Shown: positions 37,281-55,211 of the stretch, one piece after another | How the letters are laid out: each line of letters opens with the position of its first letter | How positions within the stretch are numbered: the first letter of the stretch is position 1 | DNA from: Planctomycetota bacterium | GTDB lineage: Bacteria > Planctomycetota > J058 | Length of the DNA stretch: 64,000 bases | Reading direction: 5' to 3' | NCBI GenBank assembly: GCA_003695705.1 | Contig: RFHU01000012.1 | Span: forward strand, 24,083-88,082 | Position numbers and translations under genes: made by a program | Notes under the pieces: generated by a model | Seen by the model: the letters and a program-made list of their open reading frames with translations, nothing else | The model's database searches: none | Told to the model about the DNA's origin: nothing

Positions 37281-39386
37281 TCAGTCTCCGTCCTCTCGGG
37301 GCGGACCGAAGGCGATGCGCGGGCGAGGCGAGGAGGACGAGGGACGCGAGGCGGACTCCGCGCGGGGAAGGCCCAAGTCGATGAGCGGTCGGGCCGACGC
37401 GGTCGGCCCGGGGTCCGAGGGGGCGGGCGCCGGGTTCCGGCCTCGGTCGGGAGCGGCCACGCCCGCGGCGGCTGGGGAGCGAGGGTCCGCCGCGACGCCC
37501 GCCAACGGGTCCGCGGCGACTTCGGAGGAGGGCTCGGCGTTCGCGGCCGCGGGGCCGGCGGAGCGCAGGGCAAGGACCAGGCGGAGCGCGCCTTCGGCGG
37601 CGGCCTCGCCGCTGCCCGGAGCGAGGACGAGCAAAGGGCCCGGGCCGGAAGGGAAGAGGGGACCCACGAGCTCTCCCCCTCCGGCCGCGGCGACGCCACA
37701 AGCGAAGGCCCTGGCCGCATGGCGACCGGGGAGGACGAGGACGCACGGCAGCCCCCTGGCTTCCTCGGCCGCCTTCGCACCTTCGCTGCTTGCGCGGGGA
37801 GCCTCCGCGGTCCCCGGGGACTCGCTGCGGGGGGAGGAGGCCCGGTCCCCTCTCCGGGGACGGTCCGGCGGGGCGAGGGCCTCCGCGGCGCCCACCGGCC
37901 CATGCACGGGCTCCTCCGGTGCCGAGGCGCGCACGAGGTCCCGCGCGCGGGCGAGGCGTTCGAGGAGACGATCTCCGGGGACGGGCCCCGACGCGTGGGC
38001 GACGAAGTACACCGCGTCGGCTCCGCCGAAGCATTGGCGGGCCACTTCCCGAGCCTGGCGTGCGGCCTCGGCGAGGTCTTCGGCGGTGGGGTCCCGGGCG
38101 ACGGCCGTGTCCGCAACGACGAAGGCGCGCTGCGCGGTCGCCAAGAAGTGCACGCCCACCTGGCGACGGATCCGGCCGAGGGGAACGGCGCGCCTCGCGG
38201 CCTCGAGGAGGGCGTCCTCCTCGGCAGCGGAACAAACGACAGCGGCCGCGTCGGCGGCCCCGCACGCGAGGGCGCGCCAGGCAAAAGCGAAGGGATCGCG
38301 GCGCAGGGCTGCGCAGACGCCGGGGTCGAGGAACTCGTCGTCGACGGCTTCGGCGAGCCAGGCCAGGGCCGCGTCGCTCCCGGCGGCGGCCCAGCGCACC
38401 GCCCCCTCGGCGCCGCGCGGACCCGCGGCGGAGACGGCCGAGGCGGAGCGGTCGCTCGGAAAGGGATCCACCGCGAGCAAGTCGACGCGCGCGCGTCCGT
38501 CCCGCGCCAGAGCACGCGCGGCCGAGCGGACTCCGGCGTCCGCTTCGCAGACGACCAGGAGTCGCGGCGGCGGGCACTCCGCGTCCAGGCTCGCCGCCCG
38601 CGCCGCTCCCGTCGCGGCGGCCAGGGGCGAGGCGACGCAAGCGTAGGCCTCGGTCAGGCGGCGCGGGTCTCGACCGTCGAGGGCGCATGCCGCCGCGAGG
38701 AGCGCCGCGTCGGTCTCGAGGCCGTGCCCGCGCTCCGCGAGGACTCGTGCCGCCCGCACCAGGGCGGGGAGTCCAGGAGCGGCGCCTCGATCGGCGGCGG
38801 CTCGGGCGAGGGAGGCCGCGAGGGGGTGGATCCCACGGACGCGAGGAAGGAGCGGTGTGCCGCGGGTTCGGGCACGCTCGGCGCTTGCGGCGTCTCCGGG
38901 TGCGCAGAGCAGGTCCAGGTCCTCCGGAAGCTCGTCGTCGCCCGGCTCCAGGCAGAGGAGGCGTTCGGGGCTCGCCCCCAGCGCTTCCAGCAGGGCGAGA
39001 AGGATCGCCTCCGCCCCGCCCTCGCAAGCGATGCGCAAAGCAGGAAACTCGCGCCCCGCGGCCTCCGCCCAGGCCCACGCGCCCACGGCGGTTGCCAGGT
39101 CGGCCGCGGCCGACGCAGCGACCAGGGGAGGATCTCCCTCCTGCTCCTGGGGGGTTCGGAGCGGGGCCTGGCCCGTGTCCGCCGGGAACGCGCTCAGGAG
39201 GGCGTCGCAAGCACCACCGAGGAGCAGGCGCGCCGCGTCGTGCACTGCGGCTCCGCTCGCCGCCACGGGGACGTCGAGAAGGTGGAGGCCCAAGGCCGAC
39301 CCGGCCGAAGCAGGGAGGGGCGCAACTCCGACCGGGCGCAGGACCGCAACGGTGCGGGGGCCGAGGTCGATGCGTTCGGCGTCCAT
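37281..39386 (-). CDS. Degenerate phosphotransacetylase-like protein
   Basis: ATG at 39386 is chosen for its GGGAGG ribosome-binding site, giving 701 residues. An upstream ATG has none. The N-terminal 300 residues are unrecognised. From about residue 300 the sequence follows the phosphate acetyl/butyryltransferase fold: FAWRALACGAADAAAVVCSA, VHFLATAQRAFVVADTAV, ARDPTAEDLAEAARQAREVA and VHGPVGAAEAL. Normal Pta has NPDPTAE and a Ser-rich turn after it. Here those are ARDPTAE and VAHASGP. The segment equivalent to FPDLNAGNIGYK is LPGRHAARAFACG. A disordered insertion of about 70 residues splits the fold, and the last 100 residues are Pro/Ala-rich. Catalytic activity is doubtful. It lies directly upstream of the rhomboid gene. 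Confidence 0.68.
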   Translation of the reverse strand: MDAERIDLGPRTVAVLRPVGVAPLPASAGSALGLHLLDVPVAASGAAVHDAARLLLGGACDALLSAFPADTGQAPLRTPQEQEGDPPLVAASAAADLATAVGAWAWAEAAGREFPALRIACEGGAEAILLALLEALGASPERLLCLEPGDDELPEDLDLLCAPGDAASAERARTRGTPLLPRVRGIHPLAASLARAAADRGAAPGLPALVRAARVLAERGHGLETDAALLAAACALDGRDPRRLTEAYACVASPLAAATGAARAASLDAECPPPRLLVVCEADAGVRSAARALARDGRARVDLLAVDPFPSDRSASAVSAAGPRGAEGAVRWAAAGSDAALAWLAEAVDDEFLDPGVCAALRRDPFAFAWRALACGAADAAAVVCSAAEEDALLEAARRAVPLGRIRRQVGVHFLATAQRAFVVADTAVARDPTAEDLAEAARQAREVARQCFGGADAVYFVAHASGPVPGDRLLERLARARDLVRASAPEEPVHGPVGAAEALAPPDRPRRGDRASSPRSESPGTAEAPRASSEGAKAAEEARGLPCVLVLPGRHAARAFACGVAAAGGGELVGPLFPSGPGPLLVLAPGSGEAAAEGALRLVLALRSAGPAAANAEPSSEVAADPLAGVAADPRSPAAAGVAAPDRGRNPAPAPSDPGPTASARPLIDLGLPRAESASRPSSSSPRPRIAFGPPREDGD

Positions 39387-39671: not shown

Positions 39672-40229
39672 TCAGTAGGGAATTTCGGGCGCCGCGAAGG
39701 TGACGTCCTTGATCTTGGCGCGCACCACCTCGTTGAGCGCCGAGATGACGTACTTCGTCGGCACCTGCTTGCGCGCGTCGATGATGACGGGCAGTCCCTT
39801 CTCCGAGGTGCCCGAGTAGCCGTCTCGGAACGCCACCAACTTCTCGTAGAGTTTGCGCCACACGGGGTGCTTCTCGGGCAGGTAGCGCCCGCGGTAGGTG
39901 AAGTCCTCGAGTTCGCCGGCCGAATTGAAGACCTCGTCGCCGATCTTGAGGACCACGCAGCCGCCCTCGCGGGGGGTCTTTACGTTGGTGGGCCGCCCGC
40001 TGCGGTCGTACCAGAGGAGCTTGATGCGGACTTCGTTCAGGTCGATCTGAGGAGTCCCCGATCCCTGCCCGCGGTTCTTCGGCAGGAAGGCCTCGATCAT
40101 GCCCTCCTGGCTGCGAAACTTCGTCGCGCACATGAAGAAGATCAGCAGGTTGAACACGATGTCGATCATCGGGGTCATGTCCAGTTCCAGCTCTTCGGAG
40201 CCGAACCGACTGCCCTTCTTCTTGGCCAT
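39672..40229 (-). CDS. ExbD/TolR-family protein 2
   Basis: A 185-residue protein with a short cytoplasmic start (AKKKGSRFGSEELEL) and one membrane helix, TPMIDIVFNLLIFFMC, with Asp23 as the expected proton carrier. The periplasmic part has an unusual insert (PTNVKTPREGGCVVLKIGDE) and ends with the ExbD-like pattern PVIIDARKQVPTKYVISALN. It starts two bases after the stop of the first ExbD gene. ExbD dimers plug the ExbB pentamer and transmit proton-motive force to a partner. The C-terminal end EIPY differs from TonB- or Tol-type ExbD proteins, and no TonB or TolA is nearby. Confidence 0.92.
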   Translation of the reverse strand: MAKKKGSRFGSEELELDMTPMIDIVFNLLIFFMCATKFRSQEGMIEAFLPKNRGQGSGTPQIDLNEVRIKLLWYDRSGRPTNVKTPREGGCVVLKIGDEVFNSAGELEDFTYRGRYLPEKHPVWRKLYEKLVAFRDGYSGTSEKGLPVIIDARKQVPTKYVISALNEVVRAKIKDVTFAAPEIPY

Positions 40230-40231
40230 GG

Positions 40232-40741
40232 CTAGGGCCCTCCCGGATCGTCCTTCGACGCGGCGAGGGACGTCTTGTAGATCCCGTTGCGCATGCAGGC
40301 GTCGAAGACCTCCTGCACGCGCTGGAAGGCGCCGTCCTTGTCGGCGCGAATGTTCACGCGCATCTTCGACGGGCCGGGTCCGGGGGAACCTGGAATGGGC
40401 TCCTCGCGCTCGTAGCCGGTGGCCTCGATGCCGAGGAACTTCGCCAGCGAGTCGTACTTGCCCGCGGCGATGAGCTTGGCGTCGGTGGTGAAGGCGTGGC
40501 CACGGACCTTGATGAGCCCGTCCTGCTCCATGACGTTGATCTGGAGGATCTTCTCGGCTCCGGCCGTCTTCGGCGGCTTGGCCGCCTGGTCGGCGTAGGC
40601 GAGCTGAAGATCCTCGACCGTCAAGTTCGAGAGTTCCGAAACGATCATGAAGAAGATGATCAGGTTGAACACGATGTCGATCATCGGGGTGAGCTCGGGC
40701 TTCGGCTCGGGATCTTGTTCGACCCGACTCTTCTTCGCCAT
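40232..40741 (-). CDS. ExbD/TolR-family protein 1
   Basis: A 169-residue protein with ATG start. The motif ELTPMIDIVFNLIIFFMIV carries the membrane helix and the proton-carrying Asp22. The periplasmic domain contains ILQINVMEQDGLIKVRG and KMRVNIRADKDGAFQRVQEV, with an insertion GYEREEPIPGSPGPGPS. It is followed two bases later by a second ExbD, and 27 bases separate it from ExbB upstream. Two different ExbD proteins per ExbB is a common arrangement in planctomycete- and myxobacteria-like genomes. Confidence 0.93.
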   Translation of the reverse strand: MAKKSRVEQDPEPKPELTPMIDIVFNLIIFFMIVSELSNLTVEDLQLAYADQAAKPPKTAGAEKILQINVMEQDGLIKVRGHAFTTDAKLIAAGKYDSLAKFLGIEATGYEREEPIPGSPGPGPSKMRVNIRADKDGAFQRVQEVFDACMRNGIYKTSLAASKDDPGGP

Positions 40742-40768
40742 GGCGTCGCTCCGCTCCTTCTTACCCGC

Positions 40769-41491
40769 TTACTCCTTGAAGCGTTCCATGAGCTCCTCGG
40801 CGATGGCGCTCACTTCGAGGATCATGCGCTGGACCTTGTTCCGGTAATAGAAGTAGACCGGCGCGAACATGATCGAGACGAAGATCCCCATGCAGGTGGT
40901 CACCAGCGCCTGCTGGATGCCGCCGGCCAATTCGGCGGGGGTCGGCGGCGTCTTGCTGGTGGCGATGGTATTGAACGCGCCGATCATGCCCCACACCGTA
41001 CCCAGCAGACCCAACATTGGGGAGACGTTGACGATGAAATTGATGTAGGAGATCGACTGCTGCAGCTTGGTCGCTTCGAAGTCGCCGACTTCCTGCATGG
41101 CGTCGGAAATGTACTCGTAGCTGGTGCCGATCTTGGGCAGCCCGGCCGCCACGACGTTGGTGAGGAAGCAAGGGTGCATCTCGCACACCGTCATGGCCTC
41201 CTCGAAGTCCTCCTCGTCGAAGAGCTGTTCGAGCTGGCCGAGGACGTCGGGCGGGACGATGTTGTCGCGCTTGAGGTTGATGGCGCGCTCGATGGACATG
41301 CCCATGCCGATGATCGAAGCCACGATGATGAGGCCGCCGATGGCGCCGCCGTACTTGATGAACTGGAAAGCGGTCATCGTGGGCGGCGGCTCGTTGCCTC
41401 CTCCGTCCTGGGCGAGGGCGGGCACGGCCCACAGGCCGACCAGGAGCACGGCGAGGCAAGCGATGGACAGGTACCGTCCGGCGTTCTTCAC
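40769..41491 (-). CDS. ExbB/TolQ/MotA-family proton channel with signal peptide
   Basis: A 240-residue protein beginning with GTG and preceded by AAGGAG. A cleavable signal peptide (about 1-27, LVGLWAVPALAQ) places the N-terminal tail outside, a feature of some exported ExbB proteins. Three transmembrane helices follow: FIKYGGAIGGLIIVASIIGMG at residue 45 onward (core AIGGLIIVASII), then SPMLGLLGTVWGMIGAFN with the family motif GLLGTVxGMIxAF, then TCMGIFVSIMFAPVYFYY. A cytoplasmic helical segment (residues about 75-140) has the usual ExbB position. It forms the proton-driven motor with ExbD. Confidence 0.94.
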   Translation of the reverse strand: MKNAGRYLSIACLAVLLVGLWAVPALAQDGGGNEPPPTMTAFQFIKYGGAIGGLIIVASIIGMGMSIERAINLKRDNIVPPDVLGQLEQLFDEEDFEEAMTVCEMHPCFLTNVVAAGLPKIGTSYEYISDAMQEVGDFEATKLQQSISYINFIVNVSPMLGLLGTVWGMIGAFNTIATSKTPPTPAELAGGIQQALVTTCMGIFVSIMFAPVYFYYRNKVQRMILEVSAIAEELMERFKE

Positions 41492-41584
41492 GGGGCGTCG
41501 ACTCCTTCCCCGGCCTCGCCGGGGCGGTACTTGATACCTGGGCGTGGCTTAGGCCAGGTCATCCGGGTGTATTTCCTCGACCGC

Positions 41585-42700
41585 TCACTTGAGCTTGGCC
41601 GCCCAGGAGGTGCTTGGGCAGCGCGTCTTGAGCTCGCGCCGCTGGGCCTCGGCGAGCTTGGCCAGCCCGAGGCGCTCGTAGATGCGGCCCGCCTGGTAGA
41701 GGGCCTTGGGGTAGGCCTCGGGAACGCCAGCGTAGCGAACCGAGCAGGTCTGGTAGGCGATGAGCGCCTGCTTGAGCAGCGCGGGATCGCCGCGCTTCGC
41801 CTCGGCCTTGGCGTAGAGGCAATCGCCCTTGCCCACCCAGGCGTGGGCCGCCACCTCGGGATCGCTGCCCGAGGAGTTGATGATCCCTTCGAAGTATTCG
41901 ATGGCCCGGTCGTAGGCCTTGCTGAGCACGTAGCTCTTCCCGATGCCCACTTGGGCGGCCTGGCGGATTTCGGGGTAGCGCGAGGCGCGGCCCTCTGCCT
42001 TCTGGTAATGGCCCCGGGCCTTGGTCGCGTTCTTTGCTGCCAGCGCAGCATCGCCCGCGCCCAGCGCCGCGCGGGCGCGCCAGTAGTCTCCGTAGCCCTC
42101 GTCCAGCTTCGCGAAGGTCGCCTCGGCTTGGCTGGCCTTCCCCTGGGCACTCTGCGCTTGCCCAAGGCCGTAGAGGGCCGCCGGCGCGAGGAAGTGCTCC
42201 GCGTGCTTGGAGAGCAGCGCCTGGAACTCCTTCGCGGCGCCCGCCGCGTCGCCGGCCATGAGCTTGCTCTGCCCCAGCCAGTAGGTGGAGAACGGCCACA
42301 CCCAGCTCTTCTCTGGGGCCGTGGAGCGAGCGAGGGCAAAGGCCTCGGCGGCCTTCTCGAACTGGCCCGCCCGGTACTTGCTGAGCCCCGAAGAGTAGTG
42401 GCCGGGCGCACGGAGGAAGCGGATCTCGCGCACCCGTTCGGCCTTGATCTCCTGGGTGCTGCGGCCCCGCTCCTTGTACTTGACCACGTCGTGGCCAGCC
42501 TCGCGCACGCTCACCTTGCGCAGGGGCCGACCCTGCCGCAAGTAGATCGTCGCGAGGCTGCTGACGCGCGGCCCCTTGTCCTTCTGCCTTTGGCCGGACT
42601 TGCCGCGTCCACGGCGTCGGCGGCCCTGGGCCTGGGCCGGACCGGGGAGGACGAGGCAGAGGAGGAGAGCGGAGACGCTCAGGACGCGAAGGGCGCGCAT
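41585..42700 (-). CDS. Exported TPR protein 1
   Basis: A 371-residue protein with signal peptide (RALRVLSVSALLLCLVLPGPAQA, cleaved near residue 25). The basic linker RRRRGRGKSGQRQKDKG is followed by a small beta-rich module (SSLATIYLRQGRPLRKVSV, VVKYKERGRSTQEIKAERVR). TPR repeats run from about residue 110 to the end (YRAGQFEKAAEAFALARS, LKQALIAYQTCSVRYAG). Its ATG overlaps the TAA of the larger TPR gene upstream (TAATG). The N-terminal module resembles that of the upstream TPR protein. It probably acts as a periplasmic scaffold for the ExbBD/secretin machinery (inference). Confidence 0.88.
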   Translation of the reverse strand: MRALRVLSVSALLLCLVLPGPAQAQGRRRRGRGKSGQRQKDKGPRVSSLATIYLRQGRPLRKVSVREAGHDVVKYKERGRSTQEIKAERVREIRFLRAPGHYSSGLSKYRAGQFEKAAEAFALARSTAPEKSWVWPFSTYWLGQSKLMAGDAAGAAKEFQALLSKHAEHFLAPAALYGLGQAQSAQGKASQAEATFAKLDEGYGDYWRARAALGAGDAALAAKNATKARGHYQKAEGRASRYPEIRQAAQVGIGKSYVLSKAYDRAIEYFEGIINSSGSDPEVAAHAWVGKGDCLYAKAEAKRGDPALLKQALIAYQTCSVRYAGVPEAYPKALYQAGRIYERLGLAKLAEAQRRELKTRCPSTSWAAKLK

Positions 42701-45700
42701 TACTTTCCTCCCTTTCGCTCGGCTTCCTCGAGCATGCGTTCGAGCTCTTCCCGCACATCCGGCGGGGCCTTGTCGAGTCGCCCGCGGAGCTTGAGGAGGC
42801 GCAGGTCGGAGGCGACCCCGCGCCAGTTCTCCCGCGCCATCTTCACCTTGAGGAACATCGTCTCCGCCTCCCACAGACGCCGATCGAAGTCGACGGGTTC
42901 GATCTGCGAGCGCGCCGCGATGCGCGGGTAGCTGCCCTCCATGCCGCGGAGGACGTAGACGAGTTCGTTGGCGGCGGAGGTGACCTCGTTGGCGAGGAAG
43001 TTCTTGTCGTGCTTCTCCTCCCACAGGCCCCAGGCAGCGCGAGCGCGACCGTCGACCACGAAGTAGTGCCCTCGGTAGGGCAACTCGATGGTGCGCATGT
43101 CCGTGTTGATGTCGAAGCTCTTGCTCGGGTCCTTGCCTTCGATCCCGAAGAACTGTTCCTGGCCGCGCGGAGGCCGTGCGTCGAAGAACTTCGTCTCCTT
43201 GCCCCCGAGATCGAGCAGGGTGAACCAGACCTTCTCCTGGTAGGTACGCCCGGCGCGCTTGAAGCGGAAGGGTCCCTCGAGCCGTCGCTCACGGAAGCGT
43301 CCCCAGCCGACGGCCGTGCGGCGGTCGCCGCGGCCCCGGTAGACGTAGGCCGTATTGCGGGCGTCCTGAAGGCGGGCGAAGCCGTCCTCGAGCTCCCCGA
43401 GCATCACCAGGGCGTAGCCGAGGTTCAGCTCGGCCTCGTCGAAGGATTCGCTGCGCGCGAGCTGCTTGCGCTCCTTGAGCTCGGAGGCCTTCGGGCGCTG
43501 GAAGGTCTTCAAGGCGACCTCGTAGGCCTTGCGGGCCGCACGGTAGTCGCCTCCCTGAAAGAGGGTGTCCGCGACCCAGAACACCACCGGCTCGCGCTGC
43601 TTGGCCAGGTCGATGCTGTCCGCCCAGGCCCGCACGTACTTGGCCGCCTTGCGGCGCAGGGTGCGGGATCCGTCGACATCGGCCTTCTTGTTGAACAGCT
43701 TGCCTGCTTGCGAACGGAGCTTGGAGGCCATGGTGTAGGCGAACTGCCCGAAGGCCGGGTCGCTCGTCTTGTCCTTGACCTTGCGGAAGGCGGCCTCGGC
43801 GGCGGCCACGTCGCCCTTCTTGAAATACGCCAGGGCCTGCTGGTAACGGGCGCGGACGATGTACTTGGTCGTGCTTGCCAGAGCGCGATCGAAGGGGGCC
43901 AGGGCCTTGAGGGCCTCGTCGGGGTCGCCGAGGTTGTTCTCGAGTTGGCCGAGGTAGTAGCAAGCCAGGGCCTCGGACTCGCGGTCCCCCGAGCTCCGAG
44001 CAGCCTCGGTCGCCTTGCGCAGCGCCTTGCGTGCGCGCTCGAGGTGATCCTTGTTCTTCGACTCCTTGTAGGCCTGGAAGTAACAGTAGCCGGCGTTGGC
44101 AATGGAGTTGGCGTAGAAGCTGACGCGGAGTTTCTTGCCGTCCTTGTTCGTGTACTCGGGCTTGATCCGCTCGTATTCGGCGGCGGCGTTGGCCCAGCGC
44201 TGCTTGATCTGCAGATCCTTGGCGTTCTTGAGGATGAGCTTCTGCTCGTAGAGTTCGCCCGCGGCGCTCCCCGCGCCCTGCTCGATGCGCCGGGCGAACT
44301 GGACCAGCACGCCGCTCTCGTCGGTGGGGTCCTCCTTGAACTGTTCGATGGCCTTCTTGCTGGCGGCGACCGCGTAGCGCACCGCCTCCTCGGCGCTCTC
44401 GTGGTCGGGGAACTCACGCACCACGGTCTCGTAGGCGAGGGCCGCTTCGAGGTAGCGCTCTTGCTGGAAGAGCATGTTGCCGATCTCGCGCACGGCCTTG
44501 GGAACCCACTCGCGCCGCTCCTCGGGATCGCGCGCGGCGGTGAGCACGCCCTTGTAGCCGGCGACCGCCAGGTCGGGCTCGCCGCGGAGGAAATAGCCCA
44601 CGCCCACGTAGTACTGGATCTCGGGGGAGTAGATCTCGCCGCCGGTCAGGTCGGAGAGTTCGGAGAGGGCGCGGCAAGCGCCTGCGCCAATGCGGCTCAT
44701 CCCGAGGGCAGGGATCTTTTCGGACTCGGGGGCCTCGCGGGCCTTCCGAATGATGCGGAACAGCTCGGCGGCACCGCGCGCACCGCGCCCCGAGCCGGCA
44801 AGGGCCTTGGCCCGCTCGAAGGTGAGGAGGATCCCGACCGGATGGTCTTGCCAGCCCTTGACCTTCGGGTTCTCGTCGATGGCCTGAGAAACCTTGTAGG
44901 CTTCGGGCGCGCGACCCGCGAGGAGGAGGGCGCGGACCCAACCGTAGTAGGCGCGGATGATGACGTCCTTGACCATCTCCCACACCGCCTTCTGCCCTGC
45001 GGGGTCGCGGGGAAGGAAGAGCGGTTCGGCGAGGCTGAGTTCTTCGTACTGCATGACCGCGTCGTCGAACTTGCCGAGTTCGGTCAGCATCTCCCCACGG
45101 CCGAGGTAGCTGTAGAAGAGCAGCTTCTGAAAGTTGCCGCGCTCGTCGATGTACTGCTCGTAGAGCTTGAGGGCTTCTTCGAAGTTCTTCTTGCGACCGG
45201 GGTCGTCCTTCCCGAAGGTGCGCGCGTAGCTCGCGTAGGCCTCGGCGAGGAGGAACTCGCTTAGGTCGCGCTGGAACTCCTTTTCGTTCTTCTTCTTCTC
45301 CTCCTCGGGGGTCAGGTCGCGCCGCTCCCCTTCTTCGAGGAGGGCGTCGACCTCCTTGGTCATGGCGGCAATGGTCTTCTTGAAGGGCTCGAGCACCTTC
45401 TGGAAGGTCTCGCGCCCCTCTTCGAGGAGGGCCTTCTTCTTGGCGGGGTCCCCTTCTTCGTTGGCTTGGGCGATGAGCGCGAGGGCGCGGTCCTTGGCGG
45501 CCATGAAGGCGTCCACGCTCGCCAGGGCCGCCCGGCTGTGGTTGGGGTACTTCTTGCGCAAGCGCTTGAGGAGTTGCTCGTACTCGGCGAGCAAGTCGGG
45601 GTCGTTGGTGGCGCGCGCGACGACCTTCATGGCGTCGGCGCCGAGAAAGGCGAGTTCGGCCTGCTCGCCCTTCGAGGAGGCCTTCTTCTCCAGCTCGGGG

Positions 45701-46734
45701 GCGAACTTCTGCACGGCCGCGGCCGAAACGAGCTGAAGCGTGCGACGCATGAGCTCGGCGTCGGGGGTCTTCCCTGCGTAGTCGGTGTGGCGGACGGCTC
45801 CGCGCATGCCGCGGAAGCGCTGCGCGCCGCCGAGGCGCAGGCTCTCGAGCAGCTTGGCGCCGGCCTCGGCGGCGTTCGCGCGCTCGGGATTGCTCGGGTA
45901 GAGGAGGACCGAGCGCAGGTAGGCGAGGAGGGCCGGCTCCTCCTTCCCCGCCTTGGCGAGGCAGTCTCCGAGGCCTTTGTAGGCGTAGCCCCGCGCGGCC
46001 GCGCCGGCGGCGCGCCCCGCCAGCTCGCGGAAGGCGCGTTGCGCAGAGTCCGTCTTTCCGGAAAGCAGGTCGCAGTGCGCGAGGCCGCAGGCGGCGAGGT
46101 CGCGGAGCTGCTTGTCCCGCGCGCTTCGCAGGCTCGAAAAGACCTTGCGTGCGCCCGCCGCATCGCCTTGGGCCAAGAGGTGGCGCGCCCGGCCGTAGGA
46201 GCCCACCTCCTTCCAGCGCTGACCGAACTTGCCCGAGGCGAGGCGCTCGTAGCGGCTCAGGGCCTGGTCCGGTGGCAGGAGGCGGGCGGCGCGCTGCAAG
46301 GCGATGGGCGCGTAGAAATGGCCCGGATGCGCCTTCGCCACCTCGTCGTAGGCCGCAACGGCGGCAGAGGTCTTGCCGCTTTGCTCGTAGAGCTCGGCGA
46401 GGAAGAAGCGCGCGCACGGCTTGGCGAAGTCCTCCCCGCGCGCGATGGCTCGCTCGAGGATCGGCCCGAGCTTGTCGAGGTTCTTCTCCCCCTTCTTCAA
46501 CAGGCGGATGGCCCGGTCGAGGTTGCGATCGCCGAAGGGGAGGATGCGCTCCACCTCTTCGGCGAGCCGCGTCGTGGTGGAGCCGCCGAGCTTGAAGGTG
46601 ACCTTCTCGGGGGTGGCTTCCTTGATGCCCGGCGACTGCAGCACCTCGCCGCTGGTGAGCACGATCTCGTCGGCGAAGGCAGGGGCGCCGAGGGGGAGGA
46701 GCAGCAGAAACCAAGGAACCGTCGCTCGTCTCAT
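42700..46734 (-). CDS. Exported TPR protein 2 (1344 residues)
   Basis: A very large TPR protein with signal peptide (RRATVPWFLLLLPLGAPAFA). A small module follows (DEIVLTSGEVLQSPGIKEA, KVTFKLGGSTTTRLAEEVER), then a long TPR solenoid: FFLAELYEQSGKTSAAVAAY, AYASYARTFG, QYEELSLAEPL, AALAYETVVREFPDHESAEE, ALAYFKKGDVAAAEAAFRKV and others. Charge is high and Lys-rich. There is no lipobox. The C-terminal 150 residues form a distinct domain (YRGHYFVVDGRARAAWG and EVTSAANELVYVLRGMEG). It is followed by the overlapping smaller TPR gene and the ExbBD genes, so it may be the load-bearing partner in the periplasm. This is inference from context. Confidence 0.9.
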   Translation of the reverse strand: MRRATVPWFLLLLPLGAPAFADEIVLTSGEVLQSPGIKEATPEKVTFKLGGSTTTRLAEEVERILPFGDRNLDRAIRLLKKGEKNLDKLGPILERAIARGEDFAKPCARFFLAELYEQSGKTSAAVAAYDEVAKAHPGHFYAPIALQRAARLLPPDQALSRYERLASGKFGQRWKEVGSYGRARHLLAQGDAAGARKVFSSLRSARDKQLRDLAACGLAHCDLLSGKTDSAQRAFRELAGRAAGAAARGYAYKGLGDCLAKAGKEEPALLAYLRSVLLYPSNPERANAAEAGAKLLESLRLGGAQRFRGMRGAVRHTDYAGKTPDAELMRRTLQLVSAAAVQKFAPELEKKASSKGEQAELAFLGADAMKVVARATNDPDLLAEYEQLLKRLRKKYPNHSRAALASVDAFMAAKDRALALIAQANEEGDPAKKKALLEEGRETFQKVLEPFKKTIAAMTKEVDALLEEGERRDLTPEEEKKKNEKEFQRDLSEFLLAEAYASYARTFGKDDPGRKKNFEEALKLYEQYIDERGNFQKLLFYSYLGRGEMLTELGKFDDAVMQYEELSLAEPLFLPRDPAGQKAVWEMVKDVIIRAYYGWVRALLLAGRAPEAYKVSQAIDENPKVKGWQDHPVGILLTFERAKALAGSGRGARGAAELFRIIRKAREAPESEKIPALGMSRIGAGACRALSELSDLTGGEIYSPEIQYYVGVGYFLRGEPDLAVAGYKGVLTAARDPEERREWVPKAVREIGNMLFQQERYLEAALAYETVVREFPDHESAEEAVRYAVAASKKAIEQFKEDPTDESGVLVQFARRIEQGAGSAAGELYEQKLILKNAKDLQIKQRWANAAAEYERIKPEYTNKDGKKLRVSFYANSIANAGYCYFQAYKESKNKDHLERARKALRKATEAARSSGDRESEALACYYLGQLENNLGDPDEALKALAPFDRALASTTKYIVRARYQQALAYFKKGDVAAAEAAFRKVKDKTSDPAFGQFAYTMASKLRSQAGKLFNKKADVDGSRTLRRKAAKYVRAWADSIDLAKQREPVVFWVADTLFQGGDYRAARKAYEVALKTFQRPKASELKERKQLARSESFDEAELNLGYALVMLGELEDGFARLQDARNTAYVYRGRGDRRTAVGWGRFRERRLEGPFRFKRAGRTYQEKVWFTLLDLGGKETKFFDARPPRGQEQFFGIEGKDPSKSFDINTDMRTIELPYRGHYFVVDGRARAAWGLWEEKHDKNFLANEVTSAANELVYVLRGMEGSYPRIAARSQIEPVDFDRRLWEAETMFLKVKMARENWRGVASDLRLLKLRGRLDKAPPDVREELERMLEEAERKGGK

Positions 46735-46981
46735 ACCCGGGAATACCCCCTTGTTCGCTCAGGAGTTCCAGCGAGGCGCGCCGTGGGGCGGTGGGAGCGC
46801 CGCCGGGCGGACGCGCGCTCCACCGCGCGGTCGTCGTTCGCGGGAGCCGAGGTTACATCAGCGCTTACGGGCTGACCACCGACCCCGGTCGGCCCCCCCG
46901 GCACTCCGATGCGAGGCGCCCGACAAAGCGAGGCGCCCGGCAAAGGCGAACCCACCGGACGCCGCCACGGCGCTGGCTCGC

Positions 46982-49681
46982 TCAGTGGCGGCCGAAGGTG
47001 CGCTGCTCTTCTTCGCGGATGATGGTGATGTCCGCCTTGAGAAGGACCACCAAACTCGCGCGCAGCTTCTGGAAGTGCTGCCGGCGGAAGAAGTTGTTGA
47101 TGATCGGCAGCTTCATGAAGAAGGGAACGCCGCTTTCTCCCTCGAACTCGTCGTAGTTCTTGAGCCCGCCGAGGAGGACGGTTCCCCCGTCGGGGACGGT
47201 GACCACCGAGCGGAGCTTCTGGATGGTGATGACGGGGAGCTCGATGGGGATGGTCGTGAAGCCGCCGGCGAGGGTCACGGGCGCCGGGATCCGCGCGGGG
47301 AGCTCGGTGGCCAAGGTCGGCTTGACCTCGAGGCTCACGTAGCGGCGGTCGTGGCTCACGGTCGGTCGGACCTCGAGGATCGCGCCGGTGTTGAGGATGC
47401 CGATGACCGGGTTGAGGACGGGGATGACGCCGGTCTGGTTGACTTCGACGTCTTGGATGTAAGCCCGCTGGCGAATGTTGAGGATGTGGGAGCGCTGGCC
47501 GTTGAACACCGTCAGCCGGGGAGCGTTCACCAGCCGCGCCTTCTGCGTCTTGCGCACCGCCTCCAAGATCGCCTGGAGCTGGAAGTCGTCGAGGAAGTTG
47601 TACTGGAGCGCGATGCCGCCGTTGGGCGCGATGTTGAAGGGGAGTCCGGCCGGCGCCACCGAGGAGAGGGCGTTGACGATGGCCGTGCGGGCGTTCATCT
47701 GCCCCTGTGCGTCGGTGTAGTTGTAGCCCACCTGGACGTTCTGGGGGCCGCCGCCCGTTCCGCGCGGCAGGTTGATCTGGCCGAAGGTGTCCACCGGCGC
47801 CTGGGGCGGCGTGCCGGGTTGGTTGACGATGTCGACGCCGATCTGCTCGAGGAAGTTGTCCTGCACCTGAATGAAGCGGGCCTCGACCGTAACCATGATC
47901 CCGACGGTGCGGCGAAGCGCCTCGAGGAGCTTGACGATCTTGCGGTGGGCCGCCGCGGACTTGCGCACGATGAGCATCCCGCCAGAGAACTCCACCGAGC
48001 CTTCTTCGTCCTCCTCGCCGAGCTTGTTCTCGATGAGTTCGATGAGCTTGTCGGCATCCACGCCGGTGCCCGTCTCTTCGTCGCCCTCGTCGTCGAAGCT
48101 GAGGACGCCGCCCGCGGCCCCCGCGCCGCCGCCACCTCCGCCCGCGGCCAGGTTCAGGCCCAGCTCCGGGGCCGGGTAGTCGGGCGGGGTGCTGACGATC
48201 TCGTTGACGTCGTAGAAGTCGAGAATGAGTTCCTCGACCGAGTCCTCCTCGGTCCCGATCTTGATCACACCGTCTTGGATCCGGTAGGAGAGCGACTCGT
48301 TGGAGCTCAGGATCAGGTTGAGGGCGTTCTTGAGGGTGACGTTGCTGACCCGAACGTTGACGGTGACCTCCTCGTTCTCGATCAGGTCGCGCGCCTCCGA
48401 AGAGATCACGTAGTTCAGCCCCGTGATGTCCCGCAAGAAGTCGATGGCTTCGTCGAAGGGCGTCTCGGCGAAGTTGAGGGAGATCTCCTGCGACTCGAGC
48501 TTGCGGTTGATCTCGAGGGTGTCCTCGGACTGCTCCTGGCGGGCCAGCAACTCGCTGATGGGCAGCCGGCGGTTGGAGATCTCCATCCACTCCTCGCGGC
48601 TGGGGAAGCGGAAGATCTGCTGGTAGGGGATGGTCGACTCCTCGACCCACTCGATCTGACGACGCCAGGCCTCGACGCGGTCGCGGTAGTCGCGGACCCG
48701 CTGGGCGCGCAGCTCCTCGTTCTCCGCCCGCTCGGCCAGCTCGGCTGCCTCCACGTGGCCCGGCTGCTGGCGGAGAACGTCCTTGGCCAGTCGGCGGGCC
48801 TTGGCGAACTTGCCCACGCGGAAGGCCTCGCGGGCGTCCTGCAGGAGCGACTTGATGGTCGCTTCGCGGAAGCGGCGAATGTTCGCCTTCTCGTGCTCGG
48901 CCGCCTGGCGGGCAGCCTCCTGCAGCATCTGCAAGCGACGGCGCTCCTGCTCCTCGGCGAGGCGCTTGGCCGCGGCGATGCGCGCCTGCGCCTTGGCCAT
49001 CATCCCCTCGCGGTCGATGTCGTAGGGGAACCAGCGGATGGCCTCGAGGACGCGCTGGAAGCGCTCTTGCGCGGCGTCGTAGCGCTGGCGCTCCATGAGC
49101 ACCTCGCCCTCGGTGAAGATCCGCTCCATTTCGTAGCGCGCTTGGTTGATGCGGGCCAGGCGGCGCTCGGTCATCGCGCGTACGCTGTCGCGGTACTCGG
49201 CCTTGCGATCGCCGAGGATCCAGAGCACGCGGTCGCGCAGCTCGACCGCCTCGACGTTGTCGGGGTCGAGGGCGGCGGCCCGCTGCAGGTTCGCCGCAGC
49301 CTCGCGGTAGCGCAGCTCTTGGAACAGGTTCTTGCCCGTCCGGTAGTAATTCTCGGCGAGCGCCTTGCGCTCCTGCTCTTCCAGGGAGCGCTCCCGCGCG
49401 TAGTCGCCGAGGGGACCCTCGAGCCGCCCCGGACCGCCCGCGCCGCCAGGGCCGTCGTCGGGCGGTCCCAGGGGCCGCTCGGCCGCAGGCGTCTTCGGCT
49501 CTTGCGGGGCGCCGGAGCCATCCGGCCCCTGGACGACCTCGCCCGCAGCGCCGTCGGCGGCCGGCTTCCGCGCGGCCTCGGGCGGGGGCCCAGCTTCGCC
49601 GCGATGGTCGGGGGCGGCGCACGCGGCGAGGACGCCGGCACCAAGGAGAGCGGTGGCACGGAGGAGAAGGGGCAGACGCAT
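46982..49681 (-). CDS. Secretin (GspD/PilQ superfamily) lipoprotein with N-terminal TPR-like region
   Basis: An 899-residue protein. The N-terminus is a lipoprotein signal (LRATALLGAGVLAAC with lipid Cys21). A disordered Pro/Gly region follows, then TPR-like helices about 95-345 (YYRTGKNLFQELRYREAAAN, RFQRVLEAIRWF). An N0-like domain (ISLNFAETPFDEAIDFLRDI, TLKNALNLILSS) and an N-domain (VTVEARFIQVQDNFLEQIG) precede the secretin barrel. The C-terminal signature is VTVPDGGTVLLGGL and SGVPFFMKLPIINNFF. It should form a ring-shaped outer membrane pore. Unusual features are the lipid anchor and the large N-terminal TPR-like segment, which may replace separate pilotin or peptidoglycan-binding parts. 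Confidence 0.94.
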   Translation of the reverse strand: MRLPLLLRATALLGAGVLAACAAPDHRGEAGPPPEAARKPAADGAAGEVVQGPDGSGAPQEPKTPAAERPLGPPDDGPGGAGGPGRLEGPLGDYARERSLEEQERKALAENYYRTGKNLFQELRYREAAANLQRAAALDPDNVEAVELRDRVLWILGDRKAEYRDSVRAMTERRLARINQARYEMERIFTEGEVLMERQRYDAAQERFQRVLEAIRWFPYDIDREGMMAKAQARIAAAKRLAEEQERRRLQMLQEAARQAAEHEKANIRRFREATIKSLLQDAREAFRVGKFAKARRLAKDVLRQQPGHVEAAELAERAENEELRAQRVRDYRDRVEAWRRQIEWVEESTIPYQQIFRFPSREEWMEISNRRLPISELLARQEQSEDTLEINRKLESQEISLNFAETPFDEAIDFLRDITGLNYVISSEARDLIENEEVTVNVRVSNVTLKNALNLILSSNESLSYRIQDGVIKIGTEEDSVEELILDFYDVNEIVSTPPDYPAPELGLNLAAGGGGGGAGAAGGVLSFDDEGDEETGTGVDADKLIELIENKLGEEDEEGSVEFSGGMLIVRKSAAAHRKIVKLLEALRRTVGIMVTVEARFIQVQDNFLEQIGVDIVNQPGTPPQAPVDTFGQINLPRGTGGGPQNVQVGYNYTDAQGQMNARTAIVNALSSVAPAGLPFNIAPNGGIALQYNFLDDFQLQAILEAVRKTQKARLVNAPRLTVFNGQRSHILNIRQRAYIQDVEVNQTGVIPVLNPVIGILNTGAILEVRPTVSHDRRYVSLEVKPTLATELPARIPAPVTLAGGFTTIPIELPVITIQKLRSVVTVPDGGTVLLGGLKNYDEFEGESGVPFFMKLPIINNFFRRQHFQKLRASLVVLLKADITIIREEEQRTFGRH

Positions 49682-50118
49682 GGTTCGAGCTCTTCCGAGA
49701 AACCGTTTGGCCCAGCGGGCTTGCGCCCGACGATCCTGTGTTCGGCCGCGGGGCCGGGCCGGTCAACGCGCGGGCGGGCATGCTAGCACGTTGTCCCTTG
49801 AGCACCAAGCGGTTATGGACAACGCGCCGCGCGCCCCGGTGACCTGGCGATGACCGGGCGGTGACCGCGCAAGCCTTTCCAACGCAAGAGCTTCCGGCAA
49901 GGGCGCCGCCGCACGGCCGCGCGGTGCCCCTGGGGAGCCTCCCGTGCGGCCGCGCAGCGCTCCTCGCCGTCGCCCGGCGTCGGTCCTCCTCGGCGTCCGC
50001 GAAAGGGCGGGCGGGAAACGACCCGCTCCGGGGGGCTTCCCTGGCCGCAGCGCAAGACCGCAGGAGGACGGCGCGCCTCGACCGGCGACGCCTCCCCCGC
50101 CGCAGCGCGCCCTCGGCT
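49682..50118. other. Intergenic region upstream of the secretin
   Basis: 437 bases between the secretin start and the stop of the Fn3-domain gene, both on minus. A candidate promoter lies within it (separate entry). The rest shows no protein-like frame or T-rich terminator. Confidence 0.5.
49780..49808 (-). promoter_or_regulatory. Candidate sigma-70-type promoter for the secretin
   Basis: On the minus strand, -35 TTGGTG (49808-49803), a 17-base spacer and -10 TAGCAT (49785-49780). This matches three and four of six consensus bases. It lies about 100 bases upstream of the secretin ATG, giving a leader of about 90 bases. Confidence 0.4.
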
Positions 50119-51150
50119 CTACCTTCCCTTCAGTTCCTCGGGAATGTCCTTGTCGGTGGATTCCTCGACGCTGCCGTCGGGCCACTGGAACTGGATCCAC
50201 TGCACCGGCTCGTTGTGGCCGAGCTTGTGCCTCCGCTGGCGAATCTCGACGTCCTTGAGGACGGCGCCGGTGTTGAAGTCCAGCTCGCGGCGACGCTTCT
50301 TGATCTTCTTGCCGATGCGCTGCCCGACCTTCACGTTGAAGGCGTGGGAAAGGAACTTGCCCTCCTCGGAGTCCCACTTGTAGACGCGCACGTAGGCGCT
50401 CTCGGGCCCCTTGGCGCCGCGGATCCGATCCTCGTCGGTGATCTGCTGCACGGTGATGGGAACGATGTAGACGTCGCGCTGGGTCTCGACGGGGCCGACC
50501 ACTCGGCTGACCTTGCGCTCGTCTTCTTCGGGGAGCTCGAGCCCTTCGGCGTCCACCACGGCGTTGTCCCGCTCGATCTCGGCGACGGACACGACGCGGT
50601 AGTAATACTTCTTGCGGCTCTGAACGGTCGTGTCTTCGTAGCTCTCCTCGAGGCCATCGACGCTGCCCACGACCTCCCACTCGCCGTCCTCGCCCTCGCG
50701 GCGCTCGATCTCGTACTTGACGATCATGACGTAGGCGTTGTCCACCGAGGGCTTCCAGCTAAGGACGATCTTGCCCCGCTCTTCGCTGTCGAAGCTGAGC
50801 TCTTCGGGCGCCTTGTGTACGGGGGTGTGCTTGGGGCCGCTGTCGGCGACGCTGTAGATCAGCTGCGGGCGGCGGTGCATCGCCCAGTCGGGGAAACGGG
50901 CCACCGAAGGGACTTCGGCGGGGTCGAGCTGCCGGCGCAGCCGCGGAAGGAGGTCGGGGAGCTCGACCTCGGGCGGGCGGGCCGAGTTCATGTAGCTGTT
51001 GATCTGGCGCATCTGCCGGGTGAGCTGGTCGTTCTTCTGCAACTCGGCCGGCTTCATTACGAAGCCCGCGCCCACCACGGCCAGCCAGCCGACGAAGATG
51101 GCCAGGATCCCCTTCTCGAAGTGCGCGAGCGCGAGTTGCTTCGGGTCCAC
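50119..51150 (-). CDS. Single-pass membrane protein with Fn3-like domain
   Basis: A 343-residue protein starting at GTG with GGGAGG upstream. Residues about 14-32 form a membrane helix (GILAIFVGWLAVVGAGFVM). The periplasmic part has a linker, then a fibronectin type III-like domain at about 118-195 (VLSWKPSVDNAYVMIVKYEI and KKYYYRVVSVAEI). A second beta-rich region at about 225-340 (YVRVYKWDSEEGKFLSHAFN, ELDFNTGAVLKDVEI) follows. The position after the PilO-like gene and before the secretin corresponds to PilP or GspC, which link the inner-membrane platform to the secretin. I do not see their HR-domain sequence, so this is a positional analogue. Confidence 0.82.
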   Translation of the reverse strand: MDPKQLALAHFEKGILAIFVGWLAVVGAGFVMKPAELQKNDQLTRQMRQINSYMNSARPPEVELPDLLPRLRRQLDPAEVPSVARFPDWAMHRRPQLIYSVADSGPKHTPVHKAPEELSFDSEERGKIVLSWKPSVDNAYVMIVKYEIERREGEDGEWEVVGSVDGLEESYEDTTVQSRKKYYYRVVSVAEIERDNAVVDAEGLELPEEDERKVSRVVGPVETQRDVYIVPITVQQITDEDRIRGAKGPESAYVRVYKWDSEEGKFLSHAFNVKVGQRIGKKIKKRRRELDFNTGAVLKDVEIRQRRHKLGHNEPVQWIQFQWPDGSVEESTDKDIPEELKGR

Positions 51151-51163
51151 GAGCGGCCTCCCT

Positions 51164-52231
51164 TCACTCCCCCTCCGAGGAAGATTCTTCCTCGGCGGGC
51201 TTCTCGGCGGGCTTCTTGACGTTGAAGTCGAGGGCTTCGACCTCGATGGTCACGCTGATGGGGGGCTCGGGGAGGTACTCGTCGAGGTGGTCCTCGCCCT
51301 TGAAATCGTCGTGGGTCTGGAACTCGGCGGTGTAGTAGGCCTCGCCAAAGGTCGCATCGCGCCCGTCGACGCGCAGGTTGATGTCGCTCTTCTCGATCAG
51401 GAAGGGAGCCTTGGCCACCTTCAGCGAAAGGACCCGCATCGCCACCGGCTGGGCCAAGAGGCGCTCCACCACCTTGGGGACGTCGCGGAAGAGGCAGGTG
51501 AAGGAAAGGCTCGCGCCGATGGGCTCGACCAGGGGCTTCTTCTCCTTCCCCCCGGCGGCGGGGATGCCCACCGGCAGTTCCGAGAAGCGGACCGGCTCTT
51601 GGATCTTCGCGCCTTCTCGGCCGGCCTTCTTGCTCTCCGCGGTGGCCTCGCGCAGCGCCTGCAAGAGGAACTTCTGCACCCAGAAGCGCTTCTGGAAGAG
51701 GCGCACCTGCCGCTTGTCGGGCACCTGCCGGTAGACGCGGGGCGCGACGTTCTCCTCGGGCACGACGATGTCGCGGTACTCGCGGACCAGATCGTTGATC
51801 CGGTCGTTGTAGTCGGTGACGTAGTCGCTGTGCTTGGGAAGCTTCTCCCACTCGAGCCCGCGGGTCGACGAAGCGTCGGGGAACCAGCGGTCGAGCTGGG
51901 CGTCGCGCTCGGCGATGAACTCCCGCATGGCGCGAAGCTGCTCGGCGTACTTTTCGTGCAGCTCCTTGAACTTCTGGATGTGCGCCTGGGTGAAGGGCCG
52001 ATCCTTCTCCTCGGGCGCCTTGATCTTGCCCAGGAGGGTCTTGATCTGCCGTTCGCTGCGGCGCAGGAGGGCGGCCTTGGACTTGAAGCTATTGGCGCCG
52101 CGCCCGGTGGCGCCCTTGACTCCTCCGCCGACCAAGACGAACCACAGGACCACGGGGACCAGGGCCAGCACGTAGAGCAGAATGAGCGGGACGTTGCGCC
52201 GCGCGAGTTCCTTGGGATCGACGTCGGCCAT
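51164..52231 (-). CDS. PilO/GspM-like inner-membrane protein
   Basis: A 355-residue protein. Its ATG overlaps the TGA of the PilM-N gene (TGATG). One membrane helix near residues 17-38 (LILLYVLALVPVVLWFVLVG) is followed by a long periplasmic coiled coil (LLRRSERQIKTLLGKIKAPE, FKELHEKYAEQLRAMREFIA) and a ferredoxin-like beta-alpha domain (LSFTCLFRDVPKVVERLLA, MRVLSLKVAKAPFLIEKS). This topology matches PilO/GspM, although the protein is longer than the typical 200 residues. The C-terminal tail is acidic and Ser-rich. It should pair with the PilN-like half of the upstream protein. Confidence 0.8.
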   Translation of the reverse strand: MADVDPKELARRNVPLILLYVLALVPVVLWFVLVGGGVKGATGRGANSFKSKAALLRRSERQIKTLLGKIKAPEEKDRPFTQAHIQKFKELHEKYAEQLRAMREFIAERDAQLDRWFPDASSTRGLEWEKLPKHSDYVTDYNDRINDLVREYRDIVVPEENVAPRVYRQVPDKRQVRLFQKRFWVQKFLLQALREATAESKKAGREGAKIQEPVRFSELPVGIPAAGGKEKKPLVEPIGASLSFTCLFRDVPKVVERLLAQPVAMRVLSLKVAKAPFLIEKSDINLRVDGRDATFGEAYYTAEFQTHDDFKGEDHLDEYLPEPPISVTIEVEALDFNVKKPAEKPAEEESSSEGE

Positions 52232-54075
52232 CACTCGCCTCCCTCTTCGCCCTCGGCGGGCGGCTTCGGCGCCTCGGGCGGCGGGAAGCCGATCTCGAAG
52301 GACACCGTGACGAACACGCACTCCAAGGCGCCGGTGTCGCGGTCTTCCCGGTTCGCAGGGTTGAGGCCGTAGGCGATCTGCGGAGTGCTGACGGTCATGT
52401 CGCCGTACTCGCTCGCGCTGGGCCCCGTGCGCACGTAGAAGGGAGCGTCCGTCAGCCGGGAGCGGAGGCCGGCCACGAAGCTGGCCTTGATCTCTTCGCG
52501 CACCGCGCTCGGCTCCACGTTGCCGCGGTCGTAGGACTTGGCCACGGTGAGGACCACCTTGTAGCCACGGCGCTCGTCCATGCTGACCGTACCCACGTCC
52601 AGATCGAGGAGCCACAGGCGGCGGTCGTTCTTCTTGCGGCGCGCCTCCTGCTCGAGCAAGTAGTCGATCTGCTTGTTGACCGGCCCGCGGCGGAGGTCCG
52701 CAGGCAACGGCGTCAACGCACCGTTCTCCTTGGGGAGTTCCTGCCCGAGCGCGTCCAGGAAGTCGAGCATCAACAGGCGCCCCTCGCCCAGAGCCGCCAG
52801 CTCTCGGGCAGCCTTCTCTTCCTTGGCGAAGTCCTTCAGCCCCTCGGCCTCGGCCTGGATGGCCTGGTAGGCGTTGAGCTTCTTGATGGACTTCAGGGTC
52901 CGGCCCAGCGCGTCGCGGTTGCTCGTCCAGTAGGAATAGCTGAGTCCGAGGGCGAGCCAGGAGCACACGACCGTGGCGAGGGCGAGAGGGAGCTTGGCCT
53001 TGAGCTGCGCCTGCAACTGCAGCGTCTGCGGGGCGAGGTTGACGGCGCAGCGGGCCTCGCCCGCCCCCTGGACCGCGAGGCCAAGCGGAACGGCCAGACC
53101 GAGGAGGTGCTTCTTGAGCACGTCGAGGTCGACGTCGGGATCGATGATGAAGCTCTCCTCTTCGAGGCGCTGCACGCGGGTGACCGGGTAGCCCAGCTCT
53201 TCCTTGAAGAACTTGGTGAGGTTCTTCAACTTCGCTCCGTCTCCGAGGAGGATCATTCGCTTGACGTCGAGGTCCTCCGCCTGGCTCTTGAAGAAGCCCA
53301 CCGAGCGGTGGATCTCGCCGAGCAAGTCCTTGAGGACCGGCTTCATGGCGCTGAAGATCTTGCGCGCTTGCGGGCTCTTGGAGGAGGACCGCTTGAGCTT
53401 CTCCGCTTCGGCGAAGGGGATCTTGAAGCGCTCGGCGAGCGCCTTGGTGATGTCGTTGCCCGCAATGCGCAGGTTGCGGATCCAGAATCGCTCGCCGTCG
53501 ACGATGACCAAGTCCGTGTGCTCGGCCCCGATGTCGAGGATGACCGTGGCCTCGTCGAACTCCCCGCCGTTGTGGCGGACGAAGTTGTAGATGGCCAAGG
53601 GAACGATGGTCACGATGTCGGGTTGGAGCCCGTGCTCCTGCATGTCCGCGAGGAAGCCGTCGATCAGCTCGCTGCGGGTGGCGAAGATGCCCACCTCCAC
53701 CTCGCCGCCGGGCTCCTCCTGCGGCAACTGAACGAAGTCCCAGTTGACTTCCGAGATGGGGAAGGGAATCTGCTGCTGCGCCTCCATGCGGACCATCACC
53801 GCGAGCTTGCTCCTGTCCACCGGAGGAAGCTGAATGAAACGGCTCAGGGCGTGCTGCCCGGGAATTCCGACGACGACGGTGTCGGACCCGATGCGGTGCT
53901 TGCTCAGGAAGGAGCGCAGGGCGTCGTTGACGTGCTCTTGGCGCTCGTCCTCGTCGTCCTCGATGGGGTAAGGGATGTGCTCGATGGCCTGGATCTCGAG
54001 CCCTTCGCGGGTCCGGCGCAGCTTGACCGCCTTGAGCGCGGCCTTGCCGATGTCGATGCCCCAGACCGAAGCCAT
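52231..54075 (-). CDS. PilM-PilN fusion protein
   Basis: A 614-residue protein. Residues 1-345 are PilM (actin-like ATPase fold of the FtsA/PilM family): VWGIDIGKAALKAVKL and VILDIGAEHTDLVIVDG as the two phosphate loops, MILLGDGAKLKNL as the nucleoside loop, and the PilM-type VVVGIPGQHALSRFIQLPP. At about 365-385 a membrane helix begins (LPLALATVVCSWLALGLSYS), after CAVNLAPQ, which is the place where PilN starts with its conserved NLLP-like motif. The periplasmic part (about 390-610) has a coiled segment and a beta-rich domain. In most systems PilM and PilN are separate. GspL is the natural fused equivalent, so this is GspL-like in build but PilM-like in sequence. Confidence 0.9.
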   Translation of the reverse strand: MASVWGIDIGKAALKAVKLRRTREGLEIQAIEHIPYPIEDDEDERQEHVNDALRSFLSKHRIGSDTVVVGIPGQHALSRFIQLPPVDRSKLAVMVRMEAQQQIPFPISEVNWDFVQLPQEEPGGEVEVGIFATRSELIDGFLADMQEHGLQPDIVTIVPLAIYNFVRHNGGEFDEATVILDIGAEHTDLVIVDGERFWIRNLRIAGNDITKALAERFKIPFAEAEKLKRSSSKSPQARKIFSAMKPVLKDLLGEIHRSVGFFKSQAEDLDVKRMILLGDGAKLKNLTKFFKEELGYPVTRVQRLEEESFIIDPDVDLDVLKKHLLGLAVPLGLAVQGAGEARCAVNLAPQTLQLQAQLKAKLPLALATVVCSWLALGLSYSYWTSNRDALGRTLKSIKKLNAYQAIQAEAEGLKDFAKEEKAARELAALGEGRLLMLDFLDALGQELPKENGALTPLPADLRRGPVNKQIDYLLEQEARRKKNDRRLWLLDLDVGTVSMDERRGYKVVLTVAKSYDRGNVEPSAVREEIKASFVAGLRSRLTDAPFYVRTGPSASEYGDMTVSTPQIAYGLNPANREDRDTGALECVFVTVSFEIGFPPPEAPKPPAEGEEGGE

Positions 54076-54159: not shown

Positions 54160-54188
54160 ATCATAGGAGGTGCCCTGGGCGCTGTCAA
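54160..54188 (-). promoter_or_regulatory. Near-consensus sigma-70 promoter for the PilM-N gene
   Basis: On the minus strand, -35 TTGACA (54188-54183, perfect), a 17-base spacer, and -10 TATGAT (54165-54160, five of six). This is the best promoter match noticed in the window. It would start transcription near 54153 and give a leader of about 78 bases before the ATG at 54075. It could drive the PilM-N, PilO-like and Fn3 genes together. Confidence 0.75.
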
Positions 54189-54371: not shown

Positions 54372-55211
54372 TCAGGCTCGGGCGGACCCTGCCTCGCGAC
54401 CCGGGCGCCCGCCGATGTAGGGGAACAGCTGCTGCAGGTCGTGCCAGGCCTTCCGTTTCTCGCTCGGCGAGCGAAGCAGGTAGGCCGGGTGGTAGGTGAC
54501 CAGGGCAGGGGTACCGTGCCAGTCGTGCAGTCCTCGGTTTCGCCCCAGGCTCTGGTCGGGCGTGATGAGCCCGAGGCCGACGGCCGCCGTCTTGCCCAGA
54601 GCACAGATCACGCGCGGTTGCACGATGTCGAGCTGCTCGCGCAGGTACGGCAGGCAGGTCCCCATCTCGTCGGGCTGCGGGTTGCGGTTGCCCGGCGGAC
54701 GGCACTTGACCACGTTGCAGATGAACACCTCGTCGCGGCTCAGGCCGAGGGCCGCGATCATCTTCGTGAGCAGCTCCCCGGCGCGGCCCACGAAGGCCAG
54801 CCCCTGCTGGTCCTCGTGGTAGCCAGGCCCCTCGCCCACGAAGACCAGGTCGGCGTCGGCGGCGCCCTGGCCGAACACCAGGCGGGTGCGCCCTTCGTGA
54901 AGGCGACAGCGCGTGCAGCCGGCCATGCGGTCGGCGAGGGTGTGGAGGCGCGCTTCGCGCTCCGCGAGCGAAAGGCCCCGCGCGGGCCGAGGCTCCTTCG
55001 GCAGCGCCTTCGGACTTGCTGGCGTGGCGTCCCGCGCTCGGTTCGCCGGCGCCGCGACCGAAGGGGAACGGGGCGGAGCGAAGGCCGCGCGCAACGGCGG
55101 AAGCGGTGGCACCGGCGTGTCGCGAACGCCGAGGAGCCGGTCGAGGTCCGCCAGACCCTGCGCCTGGCGGGCGAGCGCGGCGAGTTCCGCGCGCAGCTCG
55201 TCGGGGTTCAT
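54372..55211 (-). CDS. Family 4 uracil-DNA glycosylase
   Basis: A 279-residue protein with ATG at 55211. Residues about 95-270 contain the family 4 (UdgA-type) signatures: the [4Fe-4S] cysteines in GCTRCRLHEGRT, NVVKCRPPGNRNP and VICALGKTAA, the active-site loop GEGPGYHEDQQGLAFVGRAG, and the motif TYHPAYLLR. The enzyme removes uracil from DNA. The first 85 residues are a Pro/Ala-rich extension with no known function. It lies downstream of the DUF151 gene on the same strand, with 143 bases between. Confidence 0.94.
   Translation of the reverse strand: MNPDELRAELAALARQAQGLADLDRLLGVRDTPVPPLPPLRAAFAPPRSPSVAAPANRARDATPASPKALPKEPRPARGLSLAEREARLHTLADRMAGCTRCRLHEGRTRLVFGQGAADADLVFVGEGPGYHEDQQGLAFVGRAGELLTKMIAALGLSRDEVFICNVVKCRPPGNRNPQPDEMGTCLPYLREQLDIVQPRVICALGKTAAVGLGLITPDQSLGRNRGLHDWHGTPALVTYHPAYLLRSPSEKRKAWHDLQQLFPYIGGRPGREAGSARA

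Follow-up and report, generated by a model that had tools for sequence, protein, structure and literature searches.

A type IV pilus-like secretin platform and an ExbB-ExbD motor are encoded by linked genes in Planctomycetota

In a stretch of 64,000 nucleotides (the window, on contig C320) from a planctomycete draft genome of 6.6 Mb that is 88% complete, we found the genes for a secretin platform next to those for an ExbB-ExbD motor, and the conservation of this linkage among Planctomycetota is strongly supported. We consider it somewhat better than an even chance that this one locus encodes a trans-envelope secretin complex coupled to the proton-motive force. The cluster occupies positions 39672-54075 on the reverse strand, and gene calling by codon-position composition combined with Pfam returned exactly the borders and the nine genes that a first-pass annotation of this DNA had proposed. 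In 5' to 3' order on that strand, preceded by a candidate promoter, these are:

54160-54188, reverse strand: candidate sigma-70-like promoter (TTGACA-17-TATGAT, 11/12 matches), about 85 bp upstream of PilM-N
52231-54075, reverse strand: PilM-N fusion (PilM_2, 3.6e-42), an actin-like PilM domain followed by a transmembrane helix and a PilN-like periplasmic part
51164-52231, reverse strand: PilO-like protein (no Pfam match) with an N-terminal transmembrane segment, a coiled coil and a ferredoxin-like domain, predicted to have an Amuc_1100-like fold
50119-51150, reverse strand: single-pass Fn3 connector (fn3, 2.5e-5), an Fn3 domain and a C-terminal beta domain
46982-49681, reverse strand: outer-membrane TPR-secretin lipoprotein (Secretin, 1.6e-22; STN, 2.3e-7; TPR_2, 3.9e-8) with lipobox LAAC and N-terminal TPRs
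42700-46734 (alternative start 46662 possible), reverse strand: large exported TPR protein of 1344 aa (TPR_2, 2.7e-16), its position kept in relatives
41585-42700, reverse strand: small exported TPR protein of 371 aa (TPR_6, 7.1e-11), a small N-terminal domain followed by TPRs
40769-41491, reverse strand: ExbB/TolQ-type proton channel (MotA_ExbB, PF01618, 1.5e-29) with an N-terminal signal-like segment
40232-40741, reverse strand: ExbD-1 (ExbD, 1.5e-17)
39672-40229, reverse strand: ExbD-2 (ExbD, 6.3e-16), distinct from ExbD-1

The first description of the cluster as mostly tightly packed, with several overlaps, holds at three junctions (a 1-base overlap between the PilM-N and PilO genes, another between the two TPR genes and 2 bp between the ExbD genes) but not around the secretin gene, which is flanked by gaps of 437 bp before and 247 bp after it. 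Likewise, only one of the two TPR proteins deserves to be called giant, the other having just 371 residues. The sigma-70-like promoter is the sole one in the region, where 0.6 would be expected by chance. A weak promoter-like stretch lies in the gap before the secretin gene (49682-50118), close to an inverted repeat (TTGTCC...GGACAA); that the gap represents a degenerate second Fn3 gene was rejected, as it gave no match. The Fn3 connector stands in the place of PilP/GspC in the platform, and its assignment to PilP/GspC itself was rejected for want of Pfam or PDB support (the PDB matches listed for its AlphaFold2 model, pLDDT 88.8, were Fn3 proteins). The TPR-secretin has the appearance of a fusion between a TPR pilotin and a secretin.

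The linkage was followed through the phylum, using profiles built from the loci. A PilM-N homologue was present in all 58 phylum genomes, in some of them as a match only to ordinary PilM, and ExbB in 35 of the 37 genomes searched. A scan of GTDB genomes gave 409 PilM-N relatives; the best 80 of them, to which the comparison of lineages was confined, are labelled as Planctomycetota lineages (Ca. Uabimicrobium amorphum, Brocadiia and Phycisphaerae among them) or simply as bacteria. The synteny of ExbB/ExbD with PilM-N and a TPR-secretin that the first-pass annotation had proposed to look for was indeed recovered: PilM-N is followed by ExbB in the same order and on the same strand, 9-15 kb away, in 21 genomes (the source genome included) from 15 families. 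All nine genes were recognised in about ten of these; in the remaining ones at least one gene fell below detection (usually one of the two least conserved, PilO and the Fn3 connector) or the contig ended. PilM-N and ExbB lie apart in 11 genomes, counting only genomes with enough downstream sequence, and related modules are usually present elsewhere in them. Four further loci are cut short. For instance, the single-contig genomes G034 and G057 have a split cluster, with PilM-N and the Fn3 connector at one site and TPR-TPR-ExbB-ExbD-ExbD at another. Chance cannot explain the recurrent linkage of PilM-N and ExbB.

The ExbB and ExbD proteins retain the residues of the proton path. T165 and T199 of ExbB are invariant in 17 sequences, and so are the transmembrane Asp22 of ExbD-1 (16 sequences) and Asp23 of ExbD-2 (17 sequences). 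Among solved chains, TolQ is closest to ExbB (1.3e-20), and the threonine motifs align to it. In TonB-ExbB-ExbD and Tol-Pal such a motor, with the same conserved residues, works with further partners, but TonB_C, the barrel of TonB-dependent receptors (TBDT) and TolB_N were not detected in the source genome, nor in G022, G034 and G057. This absence is less convincing in the source genome than in the near-complete G034 and G057, because the former is 88% complete; both G034 and G057 have the TPR-TPR-ExbB-ExbD-ExbD genes despite it. In G005, G027 and G053, TonB and TonB-dependent receptors are present. We found no transducer with a TonB-like transmembrane motif, and the downstream gene 37281-39386 was rejected as a candidate (a weak PTA_PTB match only). 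The other ExbB-family gene of the source genome, on contig C545, has a flagellar-looking neighbourhood, judged by gene sizes alone.

These observations also bear on the idea that outer-membrane maintenance, for want of a Tol-Pal system, falls to the ExbBD-TPR module, with the secretin platform as a neighbour or an anchor. TolB_N was absent from all eight genomes searched (with a positive E. coli control), TolQ proteins are the closest solved relatives of ExbB, and the small TPR protein, which has a conserved N-terminal segment, is CpoB/YbgF-like by profile (tol_pal_ybgF, 68.2 bits, 9.1e-19). That match is under the cut-off of 90.1, however, no TolA, TolB or Pal was recognised in the cluster, and the long-range synteny with the secretin and PilM-N/PilO would be left unexplained; we regard such a replacement as unlikely.

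The platform and secretin share their architecture with PilMNOPQ of type IV pili (T4P) and GspLMCD of type II secretion systems (T2SS), but no ATPase, PilC platform protein or pilin was found in the cluster by Pfam scans, which bears out the first-pass annotation as to ATPase and pilin. The ATPase is not missing from the cell, since T2SSE genes occur on other contigs of the source genome, and T2SSE ATPases were found in all 36 genomes searched. Canonical versions of both systems are encoded separately: among the eight secretin matches of the source genome is a PilQ-type secretin with canonical pilM and pilN/O-like genes on contig C503, so that the standard pilus locus has a secretin of its own, and a GspD-type secretin adjoins an ATPase on C403. 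T2SSE and T2SSF genes are found on C7 and another PilM-like gene with an ATPase on C225. The T4P ATPases of the cell could act on the platform in trans, which would make the cluster an alignment complex for a pilus or secretion filament with ExbBD as a passenger. Membership of PilM, PilO and the secretin in T4P/T2SS families and the ubiquity of the ATPases are in line with this. Set against the two separate loci, the cluster without ATPase or pilin and the ExbBD linkage kept across 15 families, it seems quite unlikely to us.

Three observations together favour a motor powered by the proton-motive force that is probably dedicated to the secretin complex: the proton-path residues are intact, TonB, TBDT and TolB were not detected in the source genome, and T4P and T2SS each have a separate locus with an ATPase drive and a secretin of its own. 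The earlier suggestion of a secretin powered in this way gains partial support from these features and from the conserved linkage, while the energy coupling itself, the action of the motor on the secretin complex, is inferred.

AglRQS-Glt and GldLM-T9SS are precedents for a proton-motive-force motor acting on a trans-envelope complex like the proposed machine, and the combination of one ExbB, two unlike ExbDs and TPR partners recalls AglRQS-Glt in particular. Homologues of the envelope parts of these two systems were not noticed. A related module (TPR-TolQ-TolR-TolR-vWA, function unknown) was flagged in 2025 in PVC bacteria, and gliding was suggested for it (PMC12204202). It shares with our cluster a TPR gene, one TolQ-like gene and two different TolR-like genes. 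It differs in that the module described here is joined to PilM-N/PilO/secretin and that no vWA transducer was identified: the neighbours scanned with Pfam contain no vWA domain, and relatives have a sulfatase-TPR gene or a second secretin at that place. A motor that serves gliding or secretion instead of uptake would agree with these two likenesses, but it is made highly unlikely by the phylum-wide distribution, by the locus showing neither an adhesin nor a T9SS gene and by the lack of a vWA gene among the scanned neighbours.

Another finding was that the platform half appears to be related to MUL2 of Akkermansia muciniphila (Amuc_1098-1102), because PilM-N fits the NCBIfam Amuc_1101 family best (246.8 bits versus 198.9 for generic pilM; family cut-off 650) and Amuc_1100 chains take all ten top places (E 1.0e-6 to 1.8e-4) among the PDB matches of the AlphaFold2 model of the PilO-like protein (pLDDT 83.8), followed by PilO. 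The canonical PilM of the source genome has the reverse preference (152.9 versus 213.3 bits). A profile match also connects the PilO-like protein to Amuc_1100 (E 0.0039), and the TPR-secretin scores about equally with the Amuc_1098 family (86.4 bits) and PilQ (84.3 bits), both under cut-off. The three Amuc families are thus closest or joint closest. On the other hand, the scores are far under the equivalog cut-offs, the Fn3 connector of the window has no NCBIfam match, and the pilin-like Amuc_1102 (MUL2A) was not recognised among the nine proteins with NCBIfam or Pfam. The description of MUL2, which contains amuc_1099-1102, mentions neither ExbBD nor any TPR gene there (PMC13174399). With a MUL2-like platform and a TPR-ExbB-ExbD-ExbD half that matches the PVC module, the system is not wholly undescribed, and the first-pass annotation went too far in calling it so; our literature search, to which most subscription papers were closed, returned no paper that joins the two halves.

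In the proposed machine, PilM-N, the PilO-like protein and the Fn3 connector would form an inner-membrane platform that meets the TPR-lipoprotein secretin of the outer membrane. The ExbB channel with its two different ExbDs would turn proton-motive force into movement, and the two exported TPR proteins would be the likely periplasmic link between motor and secretin, replacing TonB/TolA or a traffic ATPase. In Akkermansia, the accumulation of mucin products or glycans requires the MUL genes (PMC12418764, PMC13174399), and dextran binds the fibres of the crateriform structures of Planctomycetota (PMC5394234). Because of this relation and this binding, uptake of large glycans suggests itself: by analogy, the machine might bind them and import them into the periplasm, a possible but doubtful role, and the glycan link is tentative, coming from distant homology in which neither Amuc family cut-off is reached. 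The sulfatase-TPR gene adjoining the cluster in several loci fits a glycan role but does not prove it. The machine is also a candidate for a part of the crateriform structures. It is conceivable, if fairly unlikely, that the operon forms their core, a proton-motive-force-driven secretin importer of large polysaccharides or proteins that shares its outline with Akkermansia MUL. ExbBD and the TPR proteins would then replace TonB or an ATPase, and the cargo would be pulled into the periplasm. Plim_0401-0410 of P. limnophila (PMC10632474) could not be mapped onto the nine-gene locus.

Planctomycetota have crateriform structures and take up macromolecules, features that in 2017 were called unique and were awaiting characterization (PMC5394234). 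If true, our proposal adds to the known secretin machines one that runs on proton-motive force, gives testable genes for these structures and this uptake, and suggests how the Akkermansia MUL system might be energised.

Several features were noted in the surroundings of the cluster. A uracil-DNA glycosylase gene (54372-55304, reverse strand) lies directly upstream of PilM-N, and the family containing it is found there in about 18 loci, while loci of another branch have an FHA/YscD-like protein just upstream of PilM-N (L156:1955-4414, L157, L173). Downstream of the cluster the window has a rhomboid protease gene (36537-37280, reverse strand). In about seven loci ExbD-2 is directly followed by a sulfatase-family gene, often with TPRs (e.g. 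L066:15128-17089, L167:6808-8805, L165:4539-6383, L155:7084-8748 and L047:1529-3583), which was not seen at that place in the window. Often, a second TPR-secretin follows ExbD-2 in relatives; its relative in the source genome lies on contig C460 (locus L182), where genes for a coiled-coil protein and for three trypsin-PDZ proteases come after it.
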